Source: a virus
Virus record (IMG/VR): IMGVR_UViG_3300048587_000964
Location: 1-39,880 of that record
DNA: 39,880 nucleotides
Strand: one strand, 5' to 3'
Position 1 is the first letter of the stretch; every line of letters starts with the position of its first letter. Below, piece after piece: positions 683-12,746 of the stretch. The position numbers were made by a program, and so were the translations under genes. The notes under the pieces are model-generated. The model worked only from the letters and a program-made list of their open reading frames with translations, had not been told where the DNA came from and did not search any database.

Positions 683-1384
683 CTAAAATAAGTGGCTGGA
701 AGCCTGGACCCGAAAGATGGAAAGTATTTGATCTTTTTTTATTTGTTGAGGTGGAAATTCTTCTTTTTTACCATCCATAGGCTTGCTTATTAGGGTAAAA
801 CTCTCTTTATCCTCACCTTTTGTAATGATCTTAATCATACGAAATTGATTTTTAGTAACAATGGCATATATCTCACCTAAAGGAATAAACTCTTGCCAAT
901 TTTTAATTTCAACGAGGCCAATAGCATCACCATGCTTAATGACCTTTGCCATTGATTGCCCTGAAGCTCTTACAATATAATCACAACCTTGAAAGAAAGG
1001 ATGCGACACATAATGATCCGGTATTGATTTCTGATCATTATGAATTTCTAAAAAACTGGCTGTAAAATCAATATCGTAATAAGGAACTTTTTTCCCGTAA
1101 GCTGGCTCAGGATCATTTAATAGCTCTAATTGCGAATTTTTAGTCATTTCCCCTTCTCCCGTCAATAGCCATTGTGGATTTATGTCTTCAAACTTGTTTA
1201 CTATATCTAAAATAATTTCATATGAAGGATTGGCACCTTCCTTCTTTAAACGATTAATTTTCTGAGGAGCGTCATATTTTAAATAGTTTATAGCAAACTC
1301 GTTTACGCTATTAATCCCTTTAAATTCAATAATTTGCAAAATTCTATCAAAAAAAGTTTGATTTTTATTCAAAGATGTTTCCAT
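683..1384 (-). CDS. Phage repressor, HTH plus S24 (LexA/CI-like) domain
   Basis: This 233-aa protein has a CI/LexA-type repressor layout. Residues ~10-75 form a helix-turn-helix region ending in the common 'NPQWLLTGEGEM' segment. A linker follows, then an S24 peptidase-like domain with SGQSM at 141-145 (nucleophile Ser144) and a matching Lys near 185 (FRMIK). The family represses lytic promoters and is usually inactivated by RecA-stimulated self-cleavage; I could not pick out a cleavage site. It is transcribed leftward, divergent from the transposase operon, and shares the promoter region 1391-1434 with it. A 17-bp copy of the upstream operator lies inside the gene at 1190-1206. This is the likely lysogeny switch. 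Confidence 0.85.
   Translation of the reverse strand: METSLNKNQTFFDRILQIIEFKGINSVNEFAINYLKYDAPQKINRLKKEGANPSYEIILDIVNKFEDINPQWLLTGEGEMTKNSQLELLNDPEPAYGKKVPYYDIDFTASFLEIHNDQKSIPDHYVSHPFFQGCDYIVRASGQSMAKVIKHGDAIGLVEIKNWQEFIPLGEIYAIVTKNQFRMIKIITKGEDKESFTLISKPMDGKKEEFPPQQIKKDQILSIFRVQASSHLF
1190..1206. promoter_or_regulatory. Intragenic copy of the operator sequence (putative)
   Basis: AAACTTGTTTACTATAT occurs here inside the repressor reading frame and again, identically, at 1391-1407 in the divergent promoter region. The copies are 201 bp apart, close to a whole number of helical turns. Here it encodes part of DIVNKFE. It may be an auxiliary operator used for looping; this is inference from the exact repeat. 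Confidence 0.45.
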
Positions 1385-1390
1385 AGTTTA

Positions 1391-1434
1391 AAACTTGTTT
1401 ACTATATTTGCCTTGTTACTTTACAAATGTAAAC
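1391..1434. promoter_or_regulatory. Divergent early/repressor promoters with operator repeats
   Basis: On the plus strand TATATTTG (1403-1410) fits the Bacteroidota -7 box TAnnTTTG, 33 bp before the first early ATG. On the minus strand TACATTTG (1424-1431) fits the same box, about 40 bp before the repressor ATG. GTTTAC (1397-1402) and GTAAAC (1429-1434) are inverted to each other, and TTTACAAATGTAAA is itself a dyad. The two promoters face each other over the same ~40 bp, so a repressor bound here could control both. Confidence 0.65.
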
Positions 1435-1443
1435 TAAAATATT

Positions 1444-1629
1444 ATGCAAAGAATAAGTCTTGGTCAAGAGCACCATAAAGAAATAAAAAAAGCTTTCCCA
1501 GATGTAAGCAGACAGACCATTTACGCAGCCTTAAGCTATTTTAATAATAGTGAGACGGCGCAGGCTATTCGAGCTAAAGCGAAAGAACTTTTACAGGCTG
1601 AAATTGAAAAATTAAAAATCGAAGGATAA
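1444..1629 (+). CDS. Small HTH-like early regulator (Ner/Cro position)
   Basis: This 61-aa protein is the first gene of the rightward operon. Its stop codon overlaps the transposase ATG (TAATG). Residues ~18-45 ('DVSRQTIYAALSYFNN') look like a helix-turn-helix, and the C-terminal half is a charged helix. In Mu the same place is held by Ner, a small DNA-binding negative regulator of early transcription. Similarity to Ner itself cannot be seen, so the role is inferred from position, size and the HTH. Confidence 0.6.
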   Translation: MQRISLGQEHHKEIKKAFPDVSRQTIYAALSYFNNSETAQAIRAKAKELLQAEIEKLKIEG

Positions 1630-3662
1630 TGTTTGAATATCACGGAAATACATTGTGCGTTCAAGCAAATTGGTTAGAAGAAATAGGTGTTGCTTCTGTA
1701 CCCAATCTTAAGGTACTTACGCATCGAGGTAAAGTTAGAAAAGCAAAAACTGCAGGAGGTCTCGGCAACTACGCCCTGTACGTGTACGAATCCCTCCCCC
1801 AACGCTTCCGCACGGCAATAGAGCACGATCTTGGTATTGATCCTTACGAGGAAAGCAAAACAATTCCTTTTGATAGATACTTAACACAGGATAGTTTGGC
1901 AGCGGCTTTTTTTGCCAATTACGAACTGGCAGATGGCCGTTACCTTTCCGAGGCAAACCAAGAGGCAGTCGATGAATATACAGCTAATGTTTGTGTATTT
2001 AATGGTATAGCAAAATTGTATCGGGAGATTACCGATGCAAACCCGAAAATAAACAAAGGAACACTTTGGAGCCGATTTGCCAAAGCGATCCATAGCCTTC
2101 CAAAAGAAATAAAAATACGTTACCCATTCAATCTCCCCACAAACCCTCGCGCACTGCGTGCGAAATATGAGGCCTGTGTCCTGGAAAAACCCAATAAGCG
2201 TTATCCACTTCCAGGACTTGAGGGCCTAATCCACGCAAACTACTGCAACACGCATAGCGCCAAGATTACAGAAGAGATCGGAGACTGGCTTTTATCCACT
2301 TACTGCCTCCCACTCAATTATTCCATTTATGAACTATACCAGTTATATCAAAACGAGCGATGCGATCGCGGATGGCCTGTTCTTTCCGAAAGTGGAATTG
2401 CAAACTACATAAATACGCCTGAACGTGAGCGCATTTGGACGCTTGCACGCGATGGCGAAGAGGAATACACCAAAAAATACGGGCATACACTCACCAAGAA
2501 CAAAAACAGATTGTTCCCTAATGCCCATTGGGCGATTGACGGTACCAAATTGGATACGGTTCATTATTGGGACAATAAGGCAAAAATGGCCGCTGTCTGC
2601 AAGATAAATGTACTGATTGACGTGTATTCTGAAAAAATACTCGGCTATTCCTTCAGTATGACGGAGAACCATATTGACCATTTTATAGCCGTTAAAATGG
2701 CGGTTAATGAGGCAGGTTCACGTCCATATTTATTCACTTACGATGCCCAATCTGCCCACCGATCTGCACGAATGCAGGAATTGTACGATAAGCTTATTTC
2801 AAAAGGCGGGACCCACTACCATCACAAGGTTGGGAGAAAGTCAAATCCAATCGAGCAGGTATTCAACCGCCTCCAACAACAGGTGGTTATGAAACGATGG
2901 TTCAGCGATGGACAGAGTATCAAGGCGAAGCAGAGTCGCTCCAAAGCAAATATGGAGTTTATTGAGGCCAATAAGGGCGCGCTTCCAACTTTTGAGGAAC
3001 TGCAGATGCACTGGGAACTGATGGTGGAGGAATGGAACTCACGTCCACGTTCCAAAAAGACTACCAAAACCCGAAACGAATATTTTGAGCAAAAAACATC
3101 ACACCGAAATGAGATCGGTGTCCAGGAACGAATCTCCATGTTCTGGCTCAACGAAACCAAGCCTAAAAAATACTATGCCCACGGAATGCCGCTAACTGTG
3201 GCTGGCGAAGATTATATATACGAAGTATATGATGCAAATGGTGATGTGGATGTAGATTTCAGGATAAAGTATGTACAGCAGTCGCTTATTGTTAGCTATG
3301 ATCCCGAATATCTTGATGACTACGTGGCACTTTATCGCCTTAACGATAAAGGTGAAAAGGTATTTGTGGCCTTTGCCCAGAAAAAACGTGAGCATGTGCA
3401 GGTGCCAATACTTCAGCAGCAAGGCGAACGCGAATTGATGCTAAGGGACCTTGAAGTACGGGAAAAGGAAAAAGCACGCGATTGGAAAACCTATGAAGCT
3501 TTGGTTGAACGTACCGGTATAAGCCGTGAAGCTTTGATTGATGATCAAAATTCGTGGGTTGCAAATAATGTAGAGTTCAATGCCAAGCGTGCTGCCTACG
3601 CCTCAAAGGAGGAAAACCTAGAAACGGACAGTGAATCAATTTTTGAACGTATAACCAGATAA
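1629..3662 (+). CDS. DDE transposase, MuA-like
   Basis: This is a 677-aa transposase, close to MuA length (663 aa). N-terminal DNA-binding subdomains are followed by an rve/RNase-H catalytic core. The catalytic triad is visible: Asp304 in WAIDGTK, Asp372 in TYDAQSAH and Glu409 in NPIEQVFNRLQ, the last two 37 residues apart. After the core comes a beta-rich domain of the Mu-transposase C-terminal type, then a charged helical tail that could contact the MuB-like ATPase. It would cut and join the phage ends during integration and replicative transposition, binding the AGTAC sites at both ends. Its gene lies next to the MuB-like gene, as in Mu. Confidence 0.93.
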   Translation: MFEYHGNTLCVQANWLEEIGVASVPNLKVLTHRGKVRKAKTAGGLGNYALYVYESLPQRFRTAIEHDLGIDPYEESKTIPFDRYLTQDSLAAAFFANYELADGRYLSEANQEAVDEYTANVCVFNGIAKLYREITDANPKINKGTLWSRFAKAIHSLPKEIKIRYPFNLPTNPRALRAKYEACVLEKPNKRYPLPGLEGLIHANYCNTHSAKITEEIGDWLLSTYCLPLNYSIYELYQLYQNERCDRGWPVLSESGIANYINTPERERIWTLARDGEEEYTKKYGHTLTKNKNRLFPNAHWAIDGTKLDTVHYWDNKAKMAAVCKINVLIDVYSEKILGYSFSMTENHIDHFIAVKMAVNEAGSRPYLFTYDAQSAHRSARMQELYDKLISKGGTHYHHKVGRKSNPIEQVFNRLQQQVVMKRWFSDGQSIKAKQSRSKANMEFIEANKGALPTFEELQMHWELMVEEWNSRPRSKKTTKTRNEYFEQKTSHRNEIGVQERISMFWLNETKPKKYYAHGMPLTVAGEDYIYEVYDANGDVDVDFRIKYVQQSLIVSYDPEYLDDYVALYRLNDKGEKVFVAFAQKKREHVQVPILQQQGERELMLRDLEVREKEKARDWKTYEALVERTGISREALIDDQNSWVANNVEFNAKRAAYASKEENLETDSESIFERITR

Positions 3663-3674
3663 ATATAAATTCTA

Positions 3675-4523
3675 ATGACACAAAAAGAAAAAACCAAAAT
3701 CGTTGACCTGCTTCGGGTTTTCATTACCCAAAAAGGATCACAGAATAAGGCCGCGAATGCCCTATCGGTATCATCTGCGGTTATATCACACCTTGTTAAC
3801 GGGAATTGGGAGCCATACAGTGATGATATCTTCCGTAAAATCGGTAACCAAATTGGCTACAATAGCCAGGACTGGCAATTTGTAGAGACTACAAACGCCC
3901 GAATCCTTCTAAATGCACTTAAAAAAGCGAAACAGCAACAATCTGTATTTACCGTATTAGCGGGTGCAGGTTCCGGAAAAAGCGAAATAACCAAGAAATA
4001 TGCTTCTGAAACCCCTGAGGCCATTCGTGTGGAGTGTGCTGGATATTGGGATGAAAAGCACTTTTTACAGGAAATATTGCTCCAAATGGGCGTAAGAAAC
4101 CCACACAACCGGGTACCGCAAATGATGGCTGAAATAATCAGCCGCCTAAGCAATTACCACACCCCGCCAATCCTAATTATTGACGAGGTTGATAAACTTG
4201 GTGACCGTCTTTTGTATTTCCTCATCACCTTCTACAATGAACTGAAATGGAAATGCTCCATTGTCCTGTTGTCCACCTACTATTTCAAGAAAAGATTGGA
4301 AGATGGCCTTAGAAACCGTCGCAAAGGCTATGAGGAACTGTACAGTCGTTACGGTGCATTTCTGGAATTTGAACAGACCAGCGCTGCAGACGTGCAACTG
4401 ATGTGCGAGGCACAGAGCCTAACTGATAAAACAGCCATCAAAACAATTCAAAGGAAGTCTAACGGCGATCTGCGTATTTCCGCAGAGCTTATTCGCCTAT
4501 ATAAACTGGAACATGCCGCATAG
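3675..4523 (+). CDS. AAA ATPase target-capture protein, MuB-like
   Basis: This 282-aa protein starts with an HTH region (residues ~15-60). An AAA+/ExeA-type ATPase follows, with Walker A GAGSGKS at 97-103 and Walker B ILIIDE, whose acidic pair is D170/E171. The C-terminal part is a small helical domain. MuB-type proteins bind target DNA in an ATP-dependent way, stimulate the transposase and give target immunity. The N-terminal HTH plus AAA layout and the position directly after the transposase support the call. The next gene starts 11 nt before its stop. Confidence 0.9.
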   Translation: MTQKEKTKIVDLLRVFITQKGSQNKAANALSVSSAVISHLVNGNWEPYSDDIFRKIGNQIGYNSQDWQFVETTNARILLNALKKAKQQQSVFTVLAGAGSGKSEITKKYASETPEAIRVECAGYWDEKHFLQEILLQMGVRNPHNRVPQMMAEIISRLSNYHTPPILIIDEVDKLGDRLLYFLITFYNELKWKCSIVLLSTYYFKKRLEDGLRNRRKGYEELYSRYGAFLEFEQTSAADVQLMCEAQSLTDKTAIKTIQRKSNGDLRISAELIRLYKLEHAA

Positions 4524-4989
4524 ATATCACCCCGAAATAGAAGGACTCAAAGTAAATGAGGACGGTACCGAGGTATTGTACTTCGGTGAGGAACTGGAAG
4601 TAAAGATCATTGAACGAAAGGAGCGAGACACTAATGAAACGCCATATGTGGTATTTCTCGGCAGGACCCATAGCGTTGGCAAACTGGTTTGTGAGTGCTG
4701 GAACGGATTACCTGATAATCCCCGATGGTGTGCCACAAGGATTGAAAAGGAAAAGGGATTCCATTATACCAACTTGGAATGGAGACCCTGTGGTTTCAAT
4801 CCACAGCAGGGTACCAAAAAAGTGAAACGTAGCTCACTTAGCAGGTTGAAAGGATATGAGATTGAAAAAATTGAAGAGAGGTTGAACGACGGTGAGCCGC
4901 TCAACAAGATAGCCGCCGATTATGGCGTAAGCGATATGAGCATCCACCGAATTAAAAAAGCAATGCAACGACGTGGCGAGAGCATATAA
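4513..4989 (+). CDS. HTH protein with degenerate HNH/NUMOD-like N-terminal region
   Basis: This 158-aa protein overlaps the MuB-like gene. The C-terminal ~45 residues ('LNKIAADYGVSDMSIHRIKK') form a resolvase/recombinase-type helix-turn-helix. The N-terminal part has the pattern 'VGKLVCECWNG...P' followed ~20 residues later by 'YTNLEW'. In phage HNH endonucleases the matching pattern is 'V(H/A)RLVAEAF...NHIDGN...NNLEW', but here the His-Asn-His residues are missing. It may therefore be a DNA-binding relic of a homing-type endonuclease used for early regulation or DNA recognition. The HTH is fairly sure; the HNH relation is a guess from pattern. Confidence 0.55.
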   Translation: MPHRYHPEIEGLKVNEDGTEVLYFGEELEVKIIERKERDTNETPYVVFLGRTHSVGKLVCECWNGLPDNPRWCATRIEKEKGFHYTNLEWRPCGFNPQQGTKKVKRSSLSRLKGYEIEKIEERLNDGEPLNKIAADYGVSDMSIHRIKKAMQRRGESI

Positions 4990-5647
4990 CGTAAACGATC
5001 TTTTAAATAAAAACTTTGAGTTGATGCCTTTTACCGGGCCTTGGCGGAAATCTTTTGGCAGACCCTGCAAGCAGTTCAGCATGATGATTATGGGGCCCTC
5101 CGGGGAAGGAAAAACGGAGCTTGCCATAAAACTTGCTAAATATCTGGCAGGATTTGGTAAGGTAGCCTACGACAGCATAGAGCAGGGATTTAGCCATACG
5201 CTAAAAATGGCGGTGGAACGTAACCACTTGCAGGAGGTGGCCGATAGTTTTTTGATCCTGGACAAAGAAGATCTGCCGGCGCTGACCAAAAGATTGAGAA
5301 AGCAACGGTCTCCTGATTTTTTGGTGATTGATTCCCTTCAATATCTCCGGGCTACCAAGGATGAATACTTTGAGTTCAAAAATGAATTTTACCCCAAAAA
5401 GGGAATCATCTACATCAGTCACCAAGATGGAAATGACCCAAAGGGAGCGCTTGCAAAGGATGTCTGGTTTGATGTGGACATCCATGTAAGGGTGGAGGGT
5501 TTCAAGGCCTTTCCAAGTAAAAGGCTAAACGGAGGCGGTGAGCCATACGTAATAGATGCGGTCCGTGCCGCTAAGTTTCACGGAAAAATTAAAGAAAACA
5601 ACAGCAACAATGAAAACAATCTTCGAAATCCTAAAAATGACACCTGA
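4973..5647 (+). CDS. RecA/Sak4-like P-loop ATPase
   Basis: This protein is 224 aa with a GTG start that overlaps the previous gene by 17 nt; an ATG at 5024 is an alternative start. Walker A is GPSGEGKT at residues 41-48, and Walker B is FLVIDS at 116-121. 'IYISHQDG' near 145-152 fits a sensor motif of RecA/DnaB-like ATPases. Size and layout resemble the Sak4/RecA-like phage ATPases that help single-strand annealing or strand exchange. In this operon it would act in transpositional replication or repair of phage DNA. The exact subfamily is uncertain. Confidence 0.7.
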   Translation: MARAYNVNDLLNKNFELMPFTGPWRKSFGRPCKQFSMMIMGPSGEGKTELAIKLAKYLAGFGKVAYDSIEQGFSHTLKMAVERNHLQEVADSFLILDKEDLPALTKRLRKQRSPDFLVIDSLQYLRATKDEYFEFKNEFYPKKGIIYISHQDGNDPKGALAKDVWFDVDIHVRVEGFKAFPSKRLNGGGEPYVIDAVRAAKFHGKIKENNSNNENNLRNPKNDT

Positions 5648-5918
5648 CGAGTATGATATGCTCGTGATGGATTGGTGGACCACATACTGCTATGCCAAGG
5701 CAGAAAATAAAATTTCCGTACAAAAGCTTCTAACCAATAATACGCTATTCCAATGGTGGCACGCACAGCTTGAAATGGTTGAACCTGAATTTGTAGAAGA
5801 TGCCTGGCCATTTAAGGACACCTACACAAAGGACGATGCCAATAAGCTGTATGCAAAGCACGCGTACAAACTTCAGAAATACTACAACAGCGATCTGATA
5901 AAAGAGGCATTGCAATGA
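5610..5918 (+). CDS. Hypothetical early protein
   Basis: I chose the ATG at 5610 (MKTIFEILKMTPDEY), which gives 102 aa and a 38-nt overlap with the ATPase gene; the longer open frame adds residues that only shadow that gene. The protein is acidic, aromatic-rich and predicted helical, with no known motif. A 4-nt overlap joins it to the next gene, so it is part of the early operon. Confidence 0.65.
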   Translation: MKTIFEILKMTPDEYDMLVMDWWTTYCYAKAENKISVQKLLTNNTLFQWWHAQLEMVEPEFVEDAWPFKDTYTKDDANKLYAKHAYKLQKYYNSDLIKEALQ

Positions 5919-6304
5919 AAGAAAAAATACAGAAACTCGAAGCGTGGCTGGTAGAAAATCCAGACCATCCTGATTACTGCCTTGTTTGGCAGGATAAGAA
6001 CAAATTAGAAATGGAATTATTACGAAATAAACACCAGCGAATTATGAATCTTTTAAACACAATAAGTTCTCTAAAAAAAATCGCCGGTAACCCAGAGGTA
6101 AAAAAAGCAGAAAAGGATGGTTTTTCCATCATTTTTCAAAATAGCACTTCGTCCGCAGGTTATCTCGGGCTTGAATTTGTCTGTAAAGACAAAAAGTTGA
6201 ATACGGAGTTGGTTATGCTGCCTCTAAAATTCACTCATAATCAATTATCAAATATTGTTAAAGACTGTAGAAATGCAATACAAGAGCAGATTGAAAATCA
6301 ATAG
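5915..6304 (+). CDS. Hypothetical early protein
   Basis: This 129-aa protein begins in an ATGA overlap with the previous gene. Residues ~1-60 are helical and charged; the rest looks like a small alpha/beta domain. I see no catalytic motif or membrane segment and do not recognise the family. Confidence 0.65.
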   Translation: MKEKIQKLEAWLVENPDHPDYCLVWQDKNKLEMELLRNKHQRIMNLLNTISSLKKIAGNPEVKKAEKDGFSIIFQNSTSSAGYLGLEFVCKDKKLNTELVMLPLKFTHNQLSNIVKDCRNAIQEQIENQ

Positions 6305-9636: not shown

Positions 9637-9797
9637 TGGAAATTAAATGTCATAGATGTCAACATTTGACCCAAAACCCAAAGAGCAAAAATTATTCTTG
9701 TGATAAGAACTGGTTTGGGGGTTGTACAAAACCACCCAAGTATTCGGCAAAGCTGTGTGCGGAGAAAAAGGATTTTAAACCTAAATCGATAGCATAA
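9636..9797 (+). CDS. Cys-rich mini-protein (zinc-knuckle-like)
   Basis: This 53-aa gene fits exactly between its neighbours, with TGATG and TAATG overlaps at its two ends, which is strong evidence that it is real. It contains CHRC near the N-terminus and further Cys residues at ~22, 30 and 41, a likely zinc site. The start 'EIKCHRC' resembles the opening of small phage zinc-finger proteins such as Mu Com (translational activator of mom), but no further similarity can be claimed. Confidence 0.6.
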   Translation: MEIKCHRCQHLTQNPKSKNYSCDKNWFGGCTKPPKYSAKLCAEKKDFKPKSIA

Positions 9798-10246
9798 TGG
9801 AAACCACCTACACCGTAAAGAGCAAACAGGACGGCTTCATCTGGAGCTTTAAATATACTTTAAACGGCGATTTAAGGGTTTTTATAATCGATGAAGGAAC
9901 GTTATCGGCCAAGCAGATGAAATGGCTATTTGGAAGTGGAAACTTCCCCGCCAACGAAAGCATAATGCGCTCGGTCTGGATGAAACAGCTCAAGGCCAAT
10001 TTTGAGATCACCATTGGCGAGCCAGATTTGAGTTTTGAGGCCTTCTGGACTGCATACAACCATAAGATAAAAAAAGTGGTGAGCGAAAAGGCCTGGGAAC
10101 GCCTGGGCAAAAAAGACCGGATGGCCGCCCTGGCAGGTATAAAGCCGTATGACGGTTACCTCTCCCGAAAGGGAATTGCCAAGGCGCATCCCGCCACCTA
10201 CTTGAACCAACGCTATTGGGAAGACAATCACGCATCAATTCATTGA
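9797..10246 (+). CDS. Hypothetical protein with replication-initiator-type C-terminus
   Basis: This 149-aa protein begins in a TAATG overlap. The C-terminal half has the pattern 'FEAFWTAYNHKIKK...AEKAW...YDGYL...HPATYLNQRYWED', which is common at the C-termini of phage replisome organisers and helicase-loader-like proteins. The N-terminal half is unlike a winged helix of the usual length, so it is at best a short relative. The role in replication is inferred from the tail motif only. Confidence 0.55.
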   Translation: METTYTVKSKQDGFIWSFKYTLNGDLRVFIIDEGTLSAKQMKWLFGSGNFPANESIMRSVWMKQLKANFEITIGEPDLSFEAFWTAYNHKIKKVVSEKAWERLGKKDRMAALAGIKPYDGYLSRKGIAKAHPATYLNQRYWEDNHASIH

Positions 10247-10393: not shown

Positions 10394-10909
10394 ATGAAAA
10401 CAGAAACATTGGAAATCCAAAAGGATGCTGCCGTAAAGGCGCACGACAATGCCAAAAATTCCGGCAAGAAACTGCTGGAAGATCTCTTTGGAAAAAAGAC
10501 CTTTCAAAAGAGGATAACAGACCGAATAAAGGAATTTCAGGATGTCCTCAATGAACTTGGCGACGACGATGAGGATGTGGTGGAATATCACAAAATGTGC
10601 ACGGTATTTACAGACACCCGTCACCATCTCTTAAACTACCAACGAGCCGTATTGATAGCCAAATCGCTCAACGAAGGTTGGGAACCAGACTTTGGAAACT
10701 TTGACGAATGGAAATACTATCCCTGGTTTAAATTTCAAAAAGGAAGCACGGCAGCTTCGGGCTTCGGGTTTTCGTTCAACGGTTGGGCGACCTCGAGCAC
10801 GAGTACGACTGTCGGCGCCCGCCTTTGTTTTAAATCGGCTGAGCTGGCAAAATACGCCGGAAAACAATTTGAAGACATATACAAGAATTTTTTAACCCTT
10901 AATAAATAA
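10394..10909 (+). CDS. DGR variable protein 1
   Basis: This 171-aa protein has an N-terminal helical, charged region (1-~75). The rest shares its layout with variable protein 2: 'LNEGW.P..G...E.KY.PWF.F', a variable segment, then 'VGARLCFKSAELAKYAGKQFE'. The variable repeat at 10755-10828 matches the template except at template adenines, so this gene is a target of the DGR. The variable codons correspond to AAC/AAT codons in the template. The family with the GARLCFKS...YAGKQF ending is, from memory, frequent among Bacteroidota phages. The fold (C-type lectin-like or other) cannot be decided by eye, but it should be a ligand-binding display protein. Confidence 0.88.
   Translation: MKTETLEIQKDAAVKAHDNAKNSGKKLLEDLFGKKTFQKRITDRIKEFQDVLNELGDDDEDVVEYHKMCTVFTDTRHHLLNYQRAVLIAKSLNEGWEPDFGNFDEWKYYPWFKFQKGSTAASGFGFSFNGWATSSTSTTVGARLCFKSAELAKYAGKQFEDIYKNFLTLNK
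10755..10828 (+). repeat. DGR variable repeat VR1
   Basis: This repeat aligns without gaps to the template 11327-11400. Over the 70 nt from template 11331, 12 of 20 adenine positions differ and none of the other 50 positions differ. The changes run from A to G, C or T. It is followed by a constant coding segment of ~80 nt. Confidence 0.93.
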
Positions 10910-10912
10910 CAG

Positions 10913-11293
10913 ATGAAACACGCAATCAAAACATTCGAGGATGCCTGTGCGGCTCTTAAAATTTCAACTTATCTCCCGGACTTTTCCACATCGCCGGAAC
11001 ATCACCAAAAAGCACTTATTGCCCATTACAAACTGGTGATCATCAATGAAGCGCTTAACGAAGGTTGGAAACCTAACTGGGGAGATTGGAATGAATCTAA
11101 GTATTTTCCCTGGTTCGATTTCCAAAGAGGAAGCGATAAGTCTTCGGGCTTCGGGTTTTCGTACTTCGTTTGGACGTACTCGCTCACGGGTACGGATGTC
11201 GGCGCCCGCCTTTGTTTTAAATCGGCTGAGCTGGCAAAATACGCCGGAAAACAATTTGAAGAATTGTATAAGGATTATTTCCTGTTAGAATAG
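10913..11293 (+). CDS. DGR variable protein 2
   Basis: This 126-aa protein starts 3 nt after the stop of variable protein 1. The N-terminal ~45 residues ('TFEDACAALKISTYLPDFSTSPEH') differ from protein 1. From 'LNEGWKPNWGDWNESKYFPWFDFQRGS' onward the two are homologous. The variable repeat lies at 11139-11215, followed by an invariant 'GARLCFKSAELAKYAGKQFEELYKD' tail. Two adjacent targets served by one template suggest gene duplication inside the DGR. The position far from the tail-fibre genes leaves open where the protein sits; a virion or cell-surface binding role is expected from other DGRs. Confidence 0.88.
   Translation: MKHAIKTFEDACAALKISTYLPDFSTSPEHHQKALIAHYKLVIINEALNEGWKPNWGDWNESKYFPWFDFQRGSDKSSGFGFSYFVWTYSLTGTDVGARLCFKSAELAKYAGKQFEELYKDYFLLE
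11139..11215 (+). repeat. DGR variable repeat VR2
   Basis: This repeat aligns without gaps to the template 11324-11400. Over the 70 nt from template 11331, 14 of 20 adenines are replaced and 0 of 50 non-adenine positions are changed. Its pattern of changes differs from VR1 at most central sites, so the two copies have been diversified separately. Confidence 0.93.
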
Positions 11294-11500
11294 ACTGATA
11301 AGGTGGTGCATTGCTTGTGCTGTAGTCTTCAGGCTTCAGGTTTTCGTACAACGATTGGACGAACTCGAACACGAATACGAATGTCAGCGCCCACCTATGT
11401 AAAATTACAGCAATGCAGACCCTGCCCGCACGGCAAAAAATGACAATAATACAATTGCGCTTTGGTACCCTTGGGAAGAAGAGCACTTAAAACAAAGGCT
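11294..11500 (+). ncRNA. DGR template repeat (TR, 11324-11400) and template RNA region
   Basis: The template repeat at 11324-11400 lies after the second target gene and before the reverse transcriptase. In the reading frame of the targets it would contain repeated Asn codons (AAC/AAT) at the variable sites, the hallmark of a DGR template. The GC-rich end GTCAGCGCCCACCTATGT matches the 3' end of both variable repeats except at its adenines, so it holds the equivalent of the homing sequence. The 100 nt from 11401 to 11500 are untranslated and would be the downstream part of the template RNA used for priming. Confidence 0.9.
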
Positions 11501-12463
11501 TTGAAAAGACAAAATCACATATTCGAAAAAATAACCACACTGGAGAACCTTCAGCTTGCAGACGAGCGTGCAAGAAAAGGCAAAAGCCACCAGTACGGCA
11601 TACGAAAGTTTGACAGAAACCGTGAGGAAAATTTATTGCAGCTTCAAAAAATGCTTATTGAAAAAAACTATAGAACATCCGAATATGATATCTTTTCCAT
11701 CTTCGAGCCTAAAGAGCGCCAAGTGTACCGCCTTCCATACTTTCCAGATAGGATAACACACCATGCAATAATGAATGTTTTGGAACCTATCTTCCTAAAA
11801 GTTTTCACAGCTGACACTTACAGCTGCATAAAAGGCCGTGGCATCCACGGAGCCGCCAACAATTTAAAGAAGGCGCTACAAGATGAAGAAAATACGCAGT
11901 ACTGCCTTAAAATGGATATCGTAAAATTTTACCCAAGTGTAGACCATGAAACATTGAAAAACCAACTTGCCAAAAAATTCAAGGACCGGGAATTGTTATG
12001 GTTATTACACGAAATAATCGACAGTGCGGATGGTCTTCCGATTGGGAACTACCTGAGTCAATATTTAGCAAATTTCTACTTGTCATATTTTGACCATTGG
12101 CTCAAGGAACAGATGGGCGTTAAATATTACTTCAGGTACGCCGATGATCTCGTAATACTGTCAAGTAACAAAAATGAACTTCACGCCCTTTTAAACACGA
12201 TTAAACAGTATTTAAATGAACGTTTAAAGCTGGAAGTAAAGGACAATTACCAAATATTTCCCGTTGCTTCCCGCGGGATTGATTTTGTGGGCTACAAATT
12301 CTACCACACCCACACCTTACTGAGAAAAAGCATCAAGAAGCGCTTTGCCAAGGCTGTATCAAAAAAGAAGGATAGAGCCACCATTGCTGCATATTACGGT
12401 TGGGCAAAGCACGCAGATACCAATCACTTACTCAAAAAATTATTACCCAATGAACAATTTTAA
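11501..12463 (+). CDS. DGR reverse transcriptase
   Basis: This reverse transcriptase has 320 aa from TTG 11501 ('MKRQNHIFEKITTLENLQLA'), the usual DGR-RT beginning; the open frame extends 13 codons further upstream. The RT motifs are seen in order: first catalytic Asp139 in CLKMDIVKFYPSV, GLPIGNYLSQ at 178-187 and YADD at 213-216. The SQ after the GLPIGN turn, where group II intron and retroviral enzymes have other residues, marks the DGR class. The enzyme copies the template RNA with adenine-specific errors and the cDNA replaces the variable repeats. No recognisable avd gene lies nearby. The following gene starts inside its last codons. Confidence 0.95.
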   Translation: MKRQNHIFEKITTLENLQLADERARKGKSHQYGIRKFDRNREENLLQLQKMLIEKNYRTSEYDIFSIFEPKERQVYRLPYFPDRITHHAIMNVLEPIFLKVFTADTYSCIKGRGIHGAANNLKKALQDEENTQYCLKMDIVKFYPSVDHETLKNQLAKKFKDRELLWLLHEIIDSADGLPIGNYLSQYLANFYLSYFDHWLKEQMGVKYYFRYADDLVILSSNKNELHALLNTIKQYLNERLKLEVKDNYQIFPVASRGIDFVGYKFYHTHTLLRKSIKKRFAKAVSKKKDRATIAAYYGWAKHADTNHLLKKLLPNEQF

Positions 12464-12746
12464 GGATTTCAACATTAAACCGTCACTTGAATATTTTACT
12501 GGTGACAAGATAAAGATTGACCGCATCCTCAATATGCCAATCGTGGTCACAAATTTTAAAGTGGAACCATCCAAGAAAAAGGAAGGGAGTGATTATCTGA
12601 CCCTCCAAATAGAAAAGAACGGTGTTAAGCACGTTGTGTTTACCGGCTCAACCATACTTATTCAATTGATACAGAAAGTGCCACAGGATAGGTTTCCGTT
12701 TGTGACAACTATTGTAAAGGAAGGGGAACATTTAGAATTTACTTAA
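12450..12746 (+). CDS. Small OB-like protein next to the DGR (candidate accessory)
   Basis: This protein has 98 aa from ATG 12450, overlapping the RT stop by 14 nt, which suggests translational coupling. The pattern 'VVTNFKVEPSKKKEGSDYLTLQIEKNGVKHVVFTGS' looks like a beta-rich, OB-fold-like nucleic-acid binder, with basic residues between strands. It is not an Avd-type helical bundle. Its coupling to the RT makes a role in DGR function or in single-strand DNA handling possible. This is inference. Confidence 0.6.
   Translation: MNNFKDFNIKPSLEYFTGDKIKIDRILNMPIVVTNFKVEPSKKKEGSDYLTLQIEKNGVKHVVFTGSTILIQLIQKVPQDRFPFVTTIVKEGEHLEFT

Follow-up and report, generated by a model that had tools for sequence, protein, structure and literature searches.

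A diversity-generating retroelement with two small target genes in the early region of a Mu-like phage

Introduction

Phage diversity-generating retroelements (DGRs) are understood mainly as host-range switches. The locus described here raises the question of what such an element diversifies when its targets are two small genes far from the tail fibers. The window, by which we mean the whole stretch of DNA analyzed, is an IMG/VR record of 39,880 nucleotides (IMGVR_UViG_3300048587_000964). An earlier note, made from the sequence alone, had placed a DGR at 10394 to 12463. This span was right, but its end falls short and should reach 12746 to take in the gene for a 98-aa protein. All parts of the cassette given below are on the + strand. 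Our reading is that of a functional-looking Bacteroidota phage DGR with intracellular early targets and an OB-like accessory protein, a proposal that, taken as a whole, we consider moderately probable.

Results

The core of the template repeat (TR) spans 11327 to 11400 and comprises 74 nt, 20 of which are adenines and 54 other bases. Compared to this core, the variable repeat (VR) of target gene 1 (T1), VR1 at 10755 to 10828, has 12 of the 20 adenines changed, and that of target gene 2 (T2), VR2 at 11142 to 11215, has 14 of 20 changed. None of the 54 other bases differs in either repeat. The adenine counts of the earlier note were exact on recount, and its zero for the other bases also held, although over the full core these number 54 and not 50. 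It had started the repeats at 11324 and 11139. The VR2 match does reach 11139 without an extra non-A difference, while for VR1 the extension to 11324 brings in two. With random placement, the probability that all differences land on adenines would be 6e-9 for VR1 and 8e-11 for VR2. Read in the target frame, the template has the Asn codons that had been predicted (AAC three times and AAT twice). VR1 and VR2 share the same base at only 8 of the 20 adenine sites, and we therefore conclude that the two were written independently; several of the 8 agreeing sites are boundary or structural positions. An adenine-limited repeat scan found no further VR outside the target cluster in the window, including near the fibers. 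We dropped a stop-proof template design as an argument, because the TR is stop-free in its own frame but equally so in the other two, and because the templates of relatives contain 52 codons able to yield stops.

The 48 nt 3' of the VR are identical between T1 (10829 to 10876) and T2 (11216 to 11263), and the 86 nt 5' of the VR are only 73% identical, a pattern that points to conversion or constraint on the 3' side of the VR. Since T1 and T2 are paralogous, the same flanks could be taken to mean that gene duplication followed by ordinary divergence produced the repeats, with no DGR involved. The lack of any non-A difference in either VR and the restriction of changes between close relatives to template-adenine sites (see below) refute this explanation, and we assign it a negligible probability. 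Returning to the DGR, we surveyed 128 VRs of relatives for the 3' boundary. The template A at the Gly codon of a G-x-R motif was G in 111 of 111 VRs and that at the Arg codon was G in 97 of 97, while the template-A positions farther upstream, as far as 5 nt before this motif's G, had mixed bases across the 128 VRs. Such fixed A/G differences would fit an IMH* in the template and an IMH in the target, and purifying selection on Gly-x-Arg could contribute. On this basis, the likely IMH* is the 3' end of the TR (11383 to 11400), and the likely IMHs are at 10811 to 10833 in T1, the 3' boundary of VR1, and at 11198 to 11220 in T2. A BPP-1-like hairpin after the VR showed no excess over shuffles (4.62 versus 4.39 bp).

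The gene for the reverse transcriptase (RT) runs from 11501 to 12463. Its start is best placed at the TTG at 11501, a position that lines up in register with the ATG used by most relatives; the listed open reading frame start at 11462 is less likely. The YADD and DGR-type SQ motifs named in the earlier note are present as RYADD and GLPIGNYLSQ. The protein matches structure 8ub7, which we take to be the BPP-1 DGR RT, along its whole length (E = 1e-48, with the best group II RT at 8.5e-17) and matches phrog_1423 at E = 5e-123. An RT phylogeny had been called for, with a group II affiliation as the outcome that would count against a DGR. In our tree, the window RT groups with DGR RTs; a group II-type RT and a second RT of non-DGR type are split off from these with support of 100/100. 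TR and RT are close together and share one strand, and the spacer between them is structured. This is a real DGR.

Close relatives allowed us to look for recent rewriting. The earlier note had proposed that adenine-limited differences between related phages would support activity and that non-A differences would refute it; in three near-identical pairs we found the former and none of the latter. Two loci that are 99.8% identical over 8.1 kb (L024 and L075) differ at 18 of 39 template-A positions, ten in VR1 and eight in VR2. No difference was seen at the 101 other VR positions, in the TR (72 positions), or outside (2059 positions). The pair L029/L031 differs at 11 of 48 template-A sites, in VR1 only (0 of 3105 outside), and the pair L042/L044 at 6 of 19 (0 of 1310 outside). 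Recent DGR rewriting has taken place in these sister phages, in both targets in the case of L024/L075. By extension from these relatives, the DGR of the window phage itself is probably active as well.

The phage is Mu-like, as had been stated, with members of the MuA, MuB, and Gam families (phrog_310, 2e-50; phrog_296, 1e-53; and phrog_491, 8e-33). Other genes in the window encode a terminase, portal, head protein, sheath, tape measure, and tail fiber, and a repressor-like gene lies at 683 to 1384. The DGR follows the early genes. Its upstream neighbor (9797 to 10246) resembles replication initiation proteins, and the genes for the tail sheath and tail fiber follow the DGR at distances of about 13 and 23 kb. 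The targets are thus located in the early region instead of the tail cluster, and both gene annotation and neighbor surveys bore out the early/middle position away from the fibers that the earlier note had described. In several phage types, the cassette sits between replication/transposition and packaging genes. Upstream neighbors in relatives include MuA/MuB, DnaB, primase, and SbcC, and downstream neighbors include terminase, portal, and DNA methyltransferases, the last being among the commonest recognizable ones. In the ten contigs that we scanned (nine relatives and the window), no tail VR was found, nor any other VR beyond the target cluster. The only set of targets found was the early pair or trio.

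Relatives were examined at 80 IMG/VR loci (RT identity of 59 to 74%) and 27 loci in GTDB genomes. The GTDB hosts are mostly Bacteroidota (Flavobacterium, Myroides, Chryseobacterium, Apibacter, Aquimarina, Chitinophagaceae, and Sphingobacteriaceae). Isolate genomes that carry the cassette include Flavobacterium limnosediminis, Chryseobacterium sp. YIM B08800, and Apibacter muscae. The order T1-T2-TR-RT recurs in related contigs. For counting targets, we applied the adenine-limited repeat scan to the IMG/VR set, in which 60 loci had small targets along with 1 kb or more of sequence upstream of the TR. At least two VRs were present in 55 of the 60 loci and three in 9; in L020, one of the five loci without a second VR, a finer scan found one. 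Two targets are the rule in this DGR lineage. The two adjacent targets with one template are therefore as the earlier note described them, but its view that such a layout is less common does not hold, given these counts and the 28.6% of DGRs with several VRs in a published survey (PMC6642488). Two loci have an extra target-family gene with a VR 2 to 3 kb upstream of the cassette (L071, 1836 to 2282, and L053, 2825 to 3169), so targets can also be scattered. The terminase of the window was found in only 5 of 28 contigs, which implies that the cassette is present in several phage types. The exact TR-backbone pattern had 0 matches in IMG/VR, and thus there is no near-identical copy of the window phage there.

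T1 (10394 to 10909; 171 aa) has a helical N-terminal half and its VR near the C terminus. T2 (10913 to 11293; 126 aa) is its paralogue. Both match phrog_11581 (E = 9e-34 for T1 and 5e-29 for T2), a family in which function is unknown for 82 of 90 members, and T1 relatives are present in 71 of 82 sources. A tree of targets split into two old paralogue groups with support of 95/99. The first, with the window T1 in its T1 clade, had 47 rows (39 T1, 6 extra targets, and 2 T2), and the second, with the window T2, had 51 (44 T2 and 7 T1). The pair is thus of ancient origin and has been kept together, apart from some exchanges. By hydropathy, none of 117 targets has a signal peptide or hydrophobic N terminus or a membrane segment. 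T1 and T2 have no significant Pfam or NCBIfam match in common. Two candidate identities were rejected: HEPN_Apea (0.015) is under the curated cutoff and not repeated among relatives, and JukA (0.044; Pfam/PADLOC scan) is a lone, weak match.

A PDB fold search with the T1 model gave no match and AlphaFold confidence across the VR was low (pLDDT of 44 to 48), so the argument for a lectin-like insert is drawn from homology to the phages Versailles and LoVEphage. Homologues of T1/T2 occur in eight Bacteroides/Phocaeicola phage records. In Versailles (L085), a NinB-like recombination gene and a replisome organizer flank the homologue, and in LoVEphage (L083/L086), a DNA methyltransferase precedes it by a few genes. 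One TR beside a distant RT writes the early homologue and a tail protein in both phages. The early homologues carry the VR motif of the tail protein, and the shared VR ends in G-[FS]-R-L, from which we believe that the hypervariable insert of T1/T2 is probably C-type-lectin-like. The early homologue of Versailles is annotated “tail protein,” a label that probably comes from the shared VR.

Where T1 and T2 act can be read in several ways. They could belong to the virion, at the tail tip, as head decoration, or as injected proteins, and bind structures on the host surface, with the DGR serving tropism. Tail proteins are most phage DGR targets (PMC8144416); tentaclins, a second target class, are proposed phage receptor-binding proteins (PMC10743442); and the Versailles/LoVEphage TR, with its tail target and the annotation of the early gene, points the same way. 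Against this, the targets lie among replication genes in unrelated phages, none of the ten contigs has a tail VR, the proteins are small (126 to 171 aa) with a helical frame and no structural family match, and the annotation probably has the origin given above. We consider a virion role unlikely, though it deserves serious attention. Another reading is that T1 and T2 form a hetero-complex or decoy for superinfection exclusion, guarding the lysogen against other phages. Their ancient co-maintenance in fixed order would suit this, and one paper reports that bacterial DGRs can diversify conflict-system proteins (PMC10907252). However, the window genes lie in a replication/transposition gene run and not beside the repressor-like gene, and we think this explanation quite improbable. 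T1 and T2 are in our view probably soluble counter-defense binders, with the caveat that an early gene position is no proof of early expression and is compatible with a virion role.

The spacer between TR and RT (11401 to 11500) is a conserved structured RNA. Its first helix, P1 (11423 to 11435), is TGCC/GGCA followed by an A-run. P2 (11456 to 11485), formed by TGCGCT/AGAGCA, has G-A or U-A as its fourth pair; it also contains an internal loop and is capped by 2 bp. Compensatory changes were seen for 11 of 12 pairs, and the alignment had 141 compensatory cells compared to 35 in shuffles and 4 to 33 in slid controls. RNAalifold, unaided, arrived at nearly the same fold. The MFE of the window spacer alone was not better than that of shuffles (z of +1.5), and the structure is therefore visible only by covariation. 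A covariance model of the spacer (R1) detected DGRs with other targets at about 1e-8 to 1e-9 and the crAss-like phages cr55_1 (9e-7) and LMMB (2e-4), all of these E values being rough. It did not detect BPP-1, hankyphage, Versailles, or LoVEphage, and an Rfam search of the window gave no match. The RNA is a candidate new family common to crAss-like, long-target, and small-target DGRs. The BPP-1 spacer serves to recruit RT-Avd and to prime cDNA (PMC12875486). By analogy, the spacer here likely has the same role in recruiting the RT machinery and priming cDNA.

The 98-aa gene (12450 to 12746) overlaps the end of the RT gene and follows it directly in 75 of 82 sources. Used alone as a query in IMG/VR, the protein returned 33 loci, and in 32 of these a DGR RT lies just upstream. 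Six of the 32 (L134 to L139) have different targets and no T1/T2 homologues, so the gene tracks the RT and not the target. The one exception, L141, has an OB-like gene, a long DGR-target-like ORF, and an HNH-like ORF at 1211 to 5964 with no RT recognized, and is possibly a decayed or rearranged DGR. The predicted structure of the 98-aa protein (pLDDT of 91.7) has an OB-like strand order, and its fold matches, all weak (best E of 0.04, TM of about 0.48), include the OB-type nucleic-acid binders HIN, RPA, and Stn1. The model suggests that the protein probably has an OB fold. OB-fold proteins are common in replication operons, and the gene could be an unrelated neighbor, e.g., a replication or single-stranded DNA-binding protein outside the DGR. 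Its place next to a DGR RT in nearly all loci, over varied phage contexts and targets, makes this improbable, and we favor an accessory factor of the DGR. The genes after the RT in the crAss-like LMMB and cr55_1 were compared as possible homologues and are unrelated. No bAvd or BPP-1 Avd match was found within the window, a result for which the controls give limited assurance. DGR membership stands without Avd, because about a quarter of DGRs have no accessory-gene homologue (PMC7290462). We identified no paper describing an OB-fold DGR accessory, in a search that mostly missed subscription papers and preprints.

Discussion

We propose that a TR transcript with its structured 3' spacer would be copied by the RT, which would misincorporate at template adenines, and that the mutated cDNA would replace the VR in the adjacent T1 and T2. 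Replacement would stop 3' at the IMH, which likely differs from the template IMH* at fixed adenines. T1 and T2 would be small proteins in which a helical frame holds a hypervariable insert that is probably C-type lectin-like. Their genes stand with those for replication, and the proteins are therefore probably made early and stay in the cell. Their randomized binding would most plausibly serve counter-defense or another interaction with host factors, not receptor choice. The 98-aa OB-fold-like protein would probably stand in Avd's place, binding template RNA or cDNA. In its most specific form, namely, that in a Bacteroidota phage lineage the DGR hypermutates a co-maintained intracellular early pair against host defenses instead of for tropism and that an OB-fold protein replaces Avd, we offer this as a tentative hypothesis, somewhat less likely than not.

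If true, targeted hypermutation would extend to intracellular phage-host conflict, the only detectable targets being small, soluble-looking, and early. The system is compact, with two targets, a 74-nt core template, a spacer RNA of roughly 100 nt, the RT, and the 98-aa protein. For priming and homing in Avd-less DGRs, leads come from the covarying spacer RNA and from the OB-like gene. Within this lineage, two targets are the ordinary layout, and the arrangement is known from other DGRs as well: the tentaclin phage DGRs (nd4 and nd12) and Bacuni phages also have one TR and two target genes, but their targets are C-lectin/Ig or fimbrial-tip-like proteins, with Avd, and not small early paralogues (PMC10743442, PMC8143477). 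Less ordinary is the hypermutation of small early-region paralogues instead of tail proteins, in company with a conserved spacer RNA and an OB-like gene that is linked to the RT.

The BPP-1 DGR (mtd-avd-TR-brt) resembles that of the window: the RTs are homologous, TR and VR differ only at A, and the TR precedes the RT with a structured spacer in between. Its target, however, is a tail protein, whereas the window has two small early-region genes, no Avd found, an OB-like gene after the RT, and no conserved hairpin after the VR. Hankyphage p00 likewise carries a DGR in a transposable (Mu-like) Bacteroidota phage, from Bacteroides, but it diversifies a tail fiber and has Avd (PMC12135933); its RT is about 35% identical to the window RT. 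Closer are the Lineage-3/crAss-like DGRs of crAssphage LMMB and cr55_1, which share the order target-TR-RT without avd (PMC7290462). Their RTs are 52 to 58% identical to the window RT and the same spacer RNA is detectable, but LMMB has a single large tail-collar target, unlike the window pair, and in both phages the gene after the RT is unrelated to that for the 98-aa protein.

DGR-written targets in the early region are shared with LoVEphage and Versailles, where they belong to the same protein family; a 2025 gut prophage study reports four species in which a second VR, distant from the RT, lies near counter-defense genes (PMC12629997). Unlike in the window, the early target of LoVEphage and Versailles is far from the RT and is written along with a tail protein, whereas for the window lineage no target besides the early pair was found, and this pair lies inside the cassette. 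The LoVEphage RT (L086, 6579 to 7651; OY731444, 30578 to 31650) aligns in three pieces and is annotated as fragments, as in BI-TP1, and the gene may be interrupted or frameshifted.
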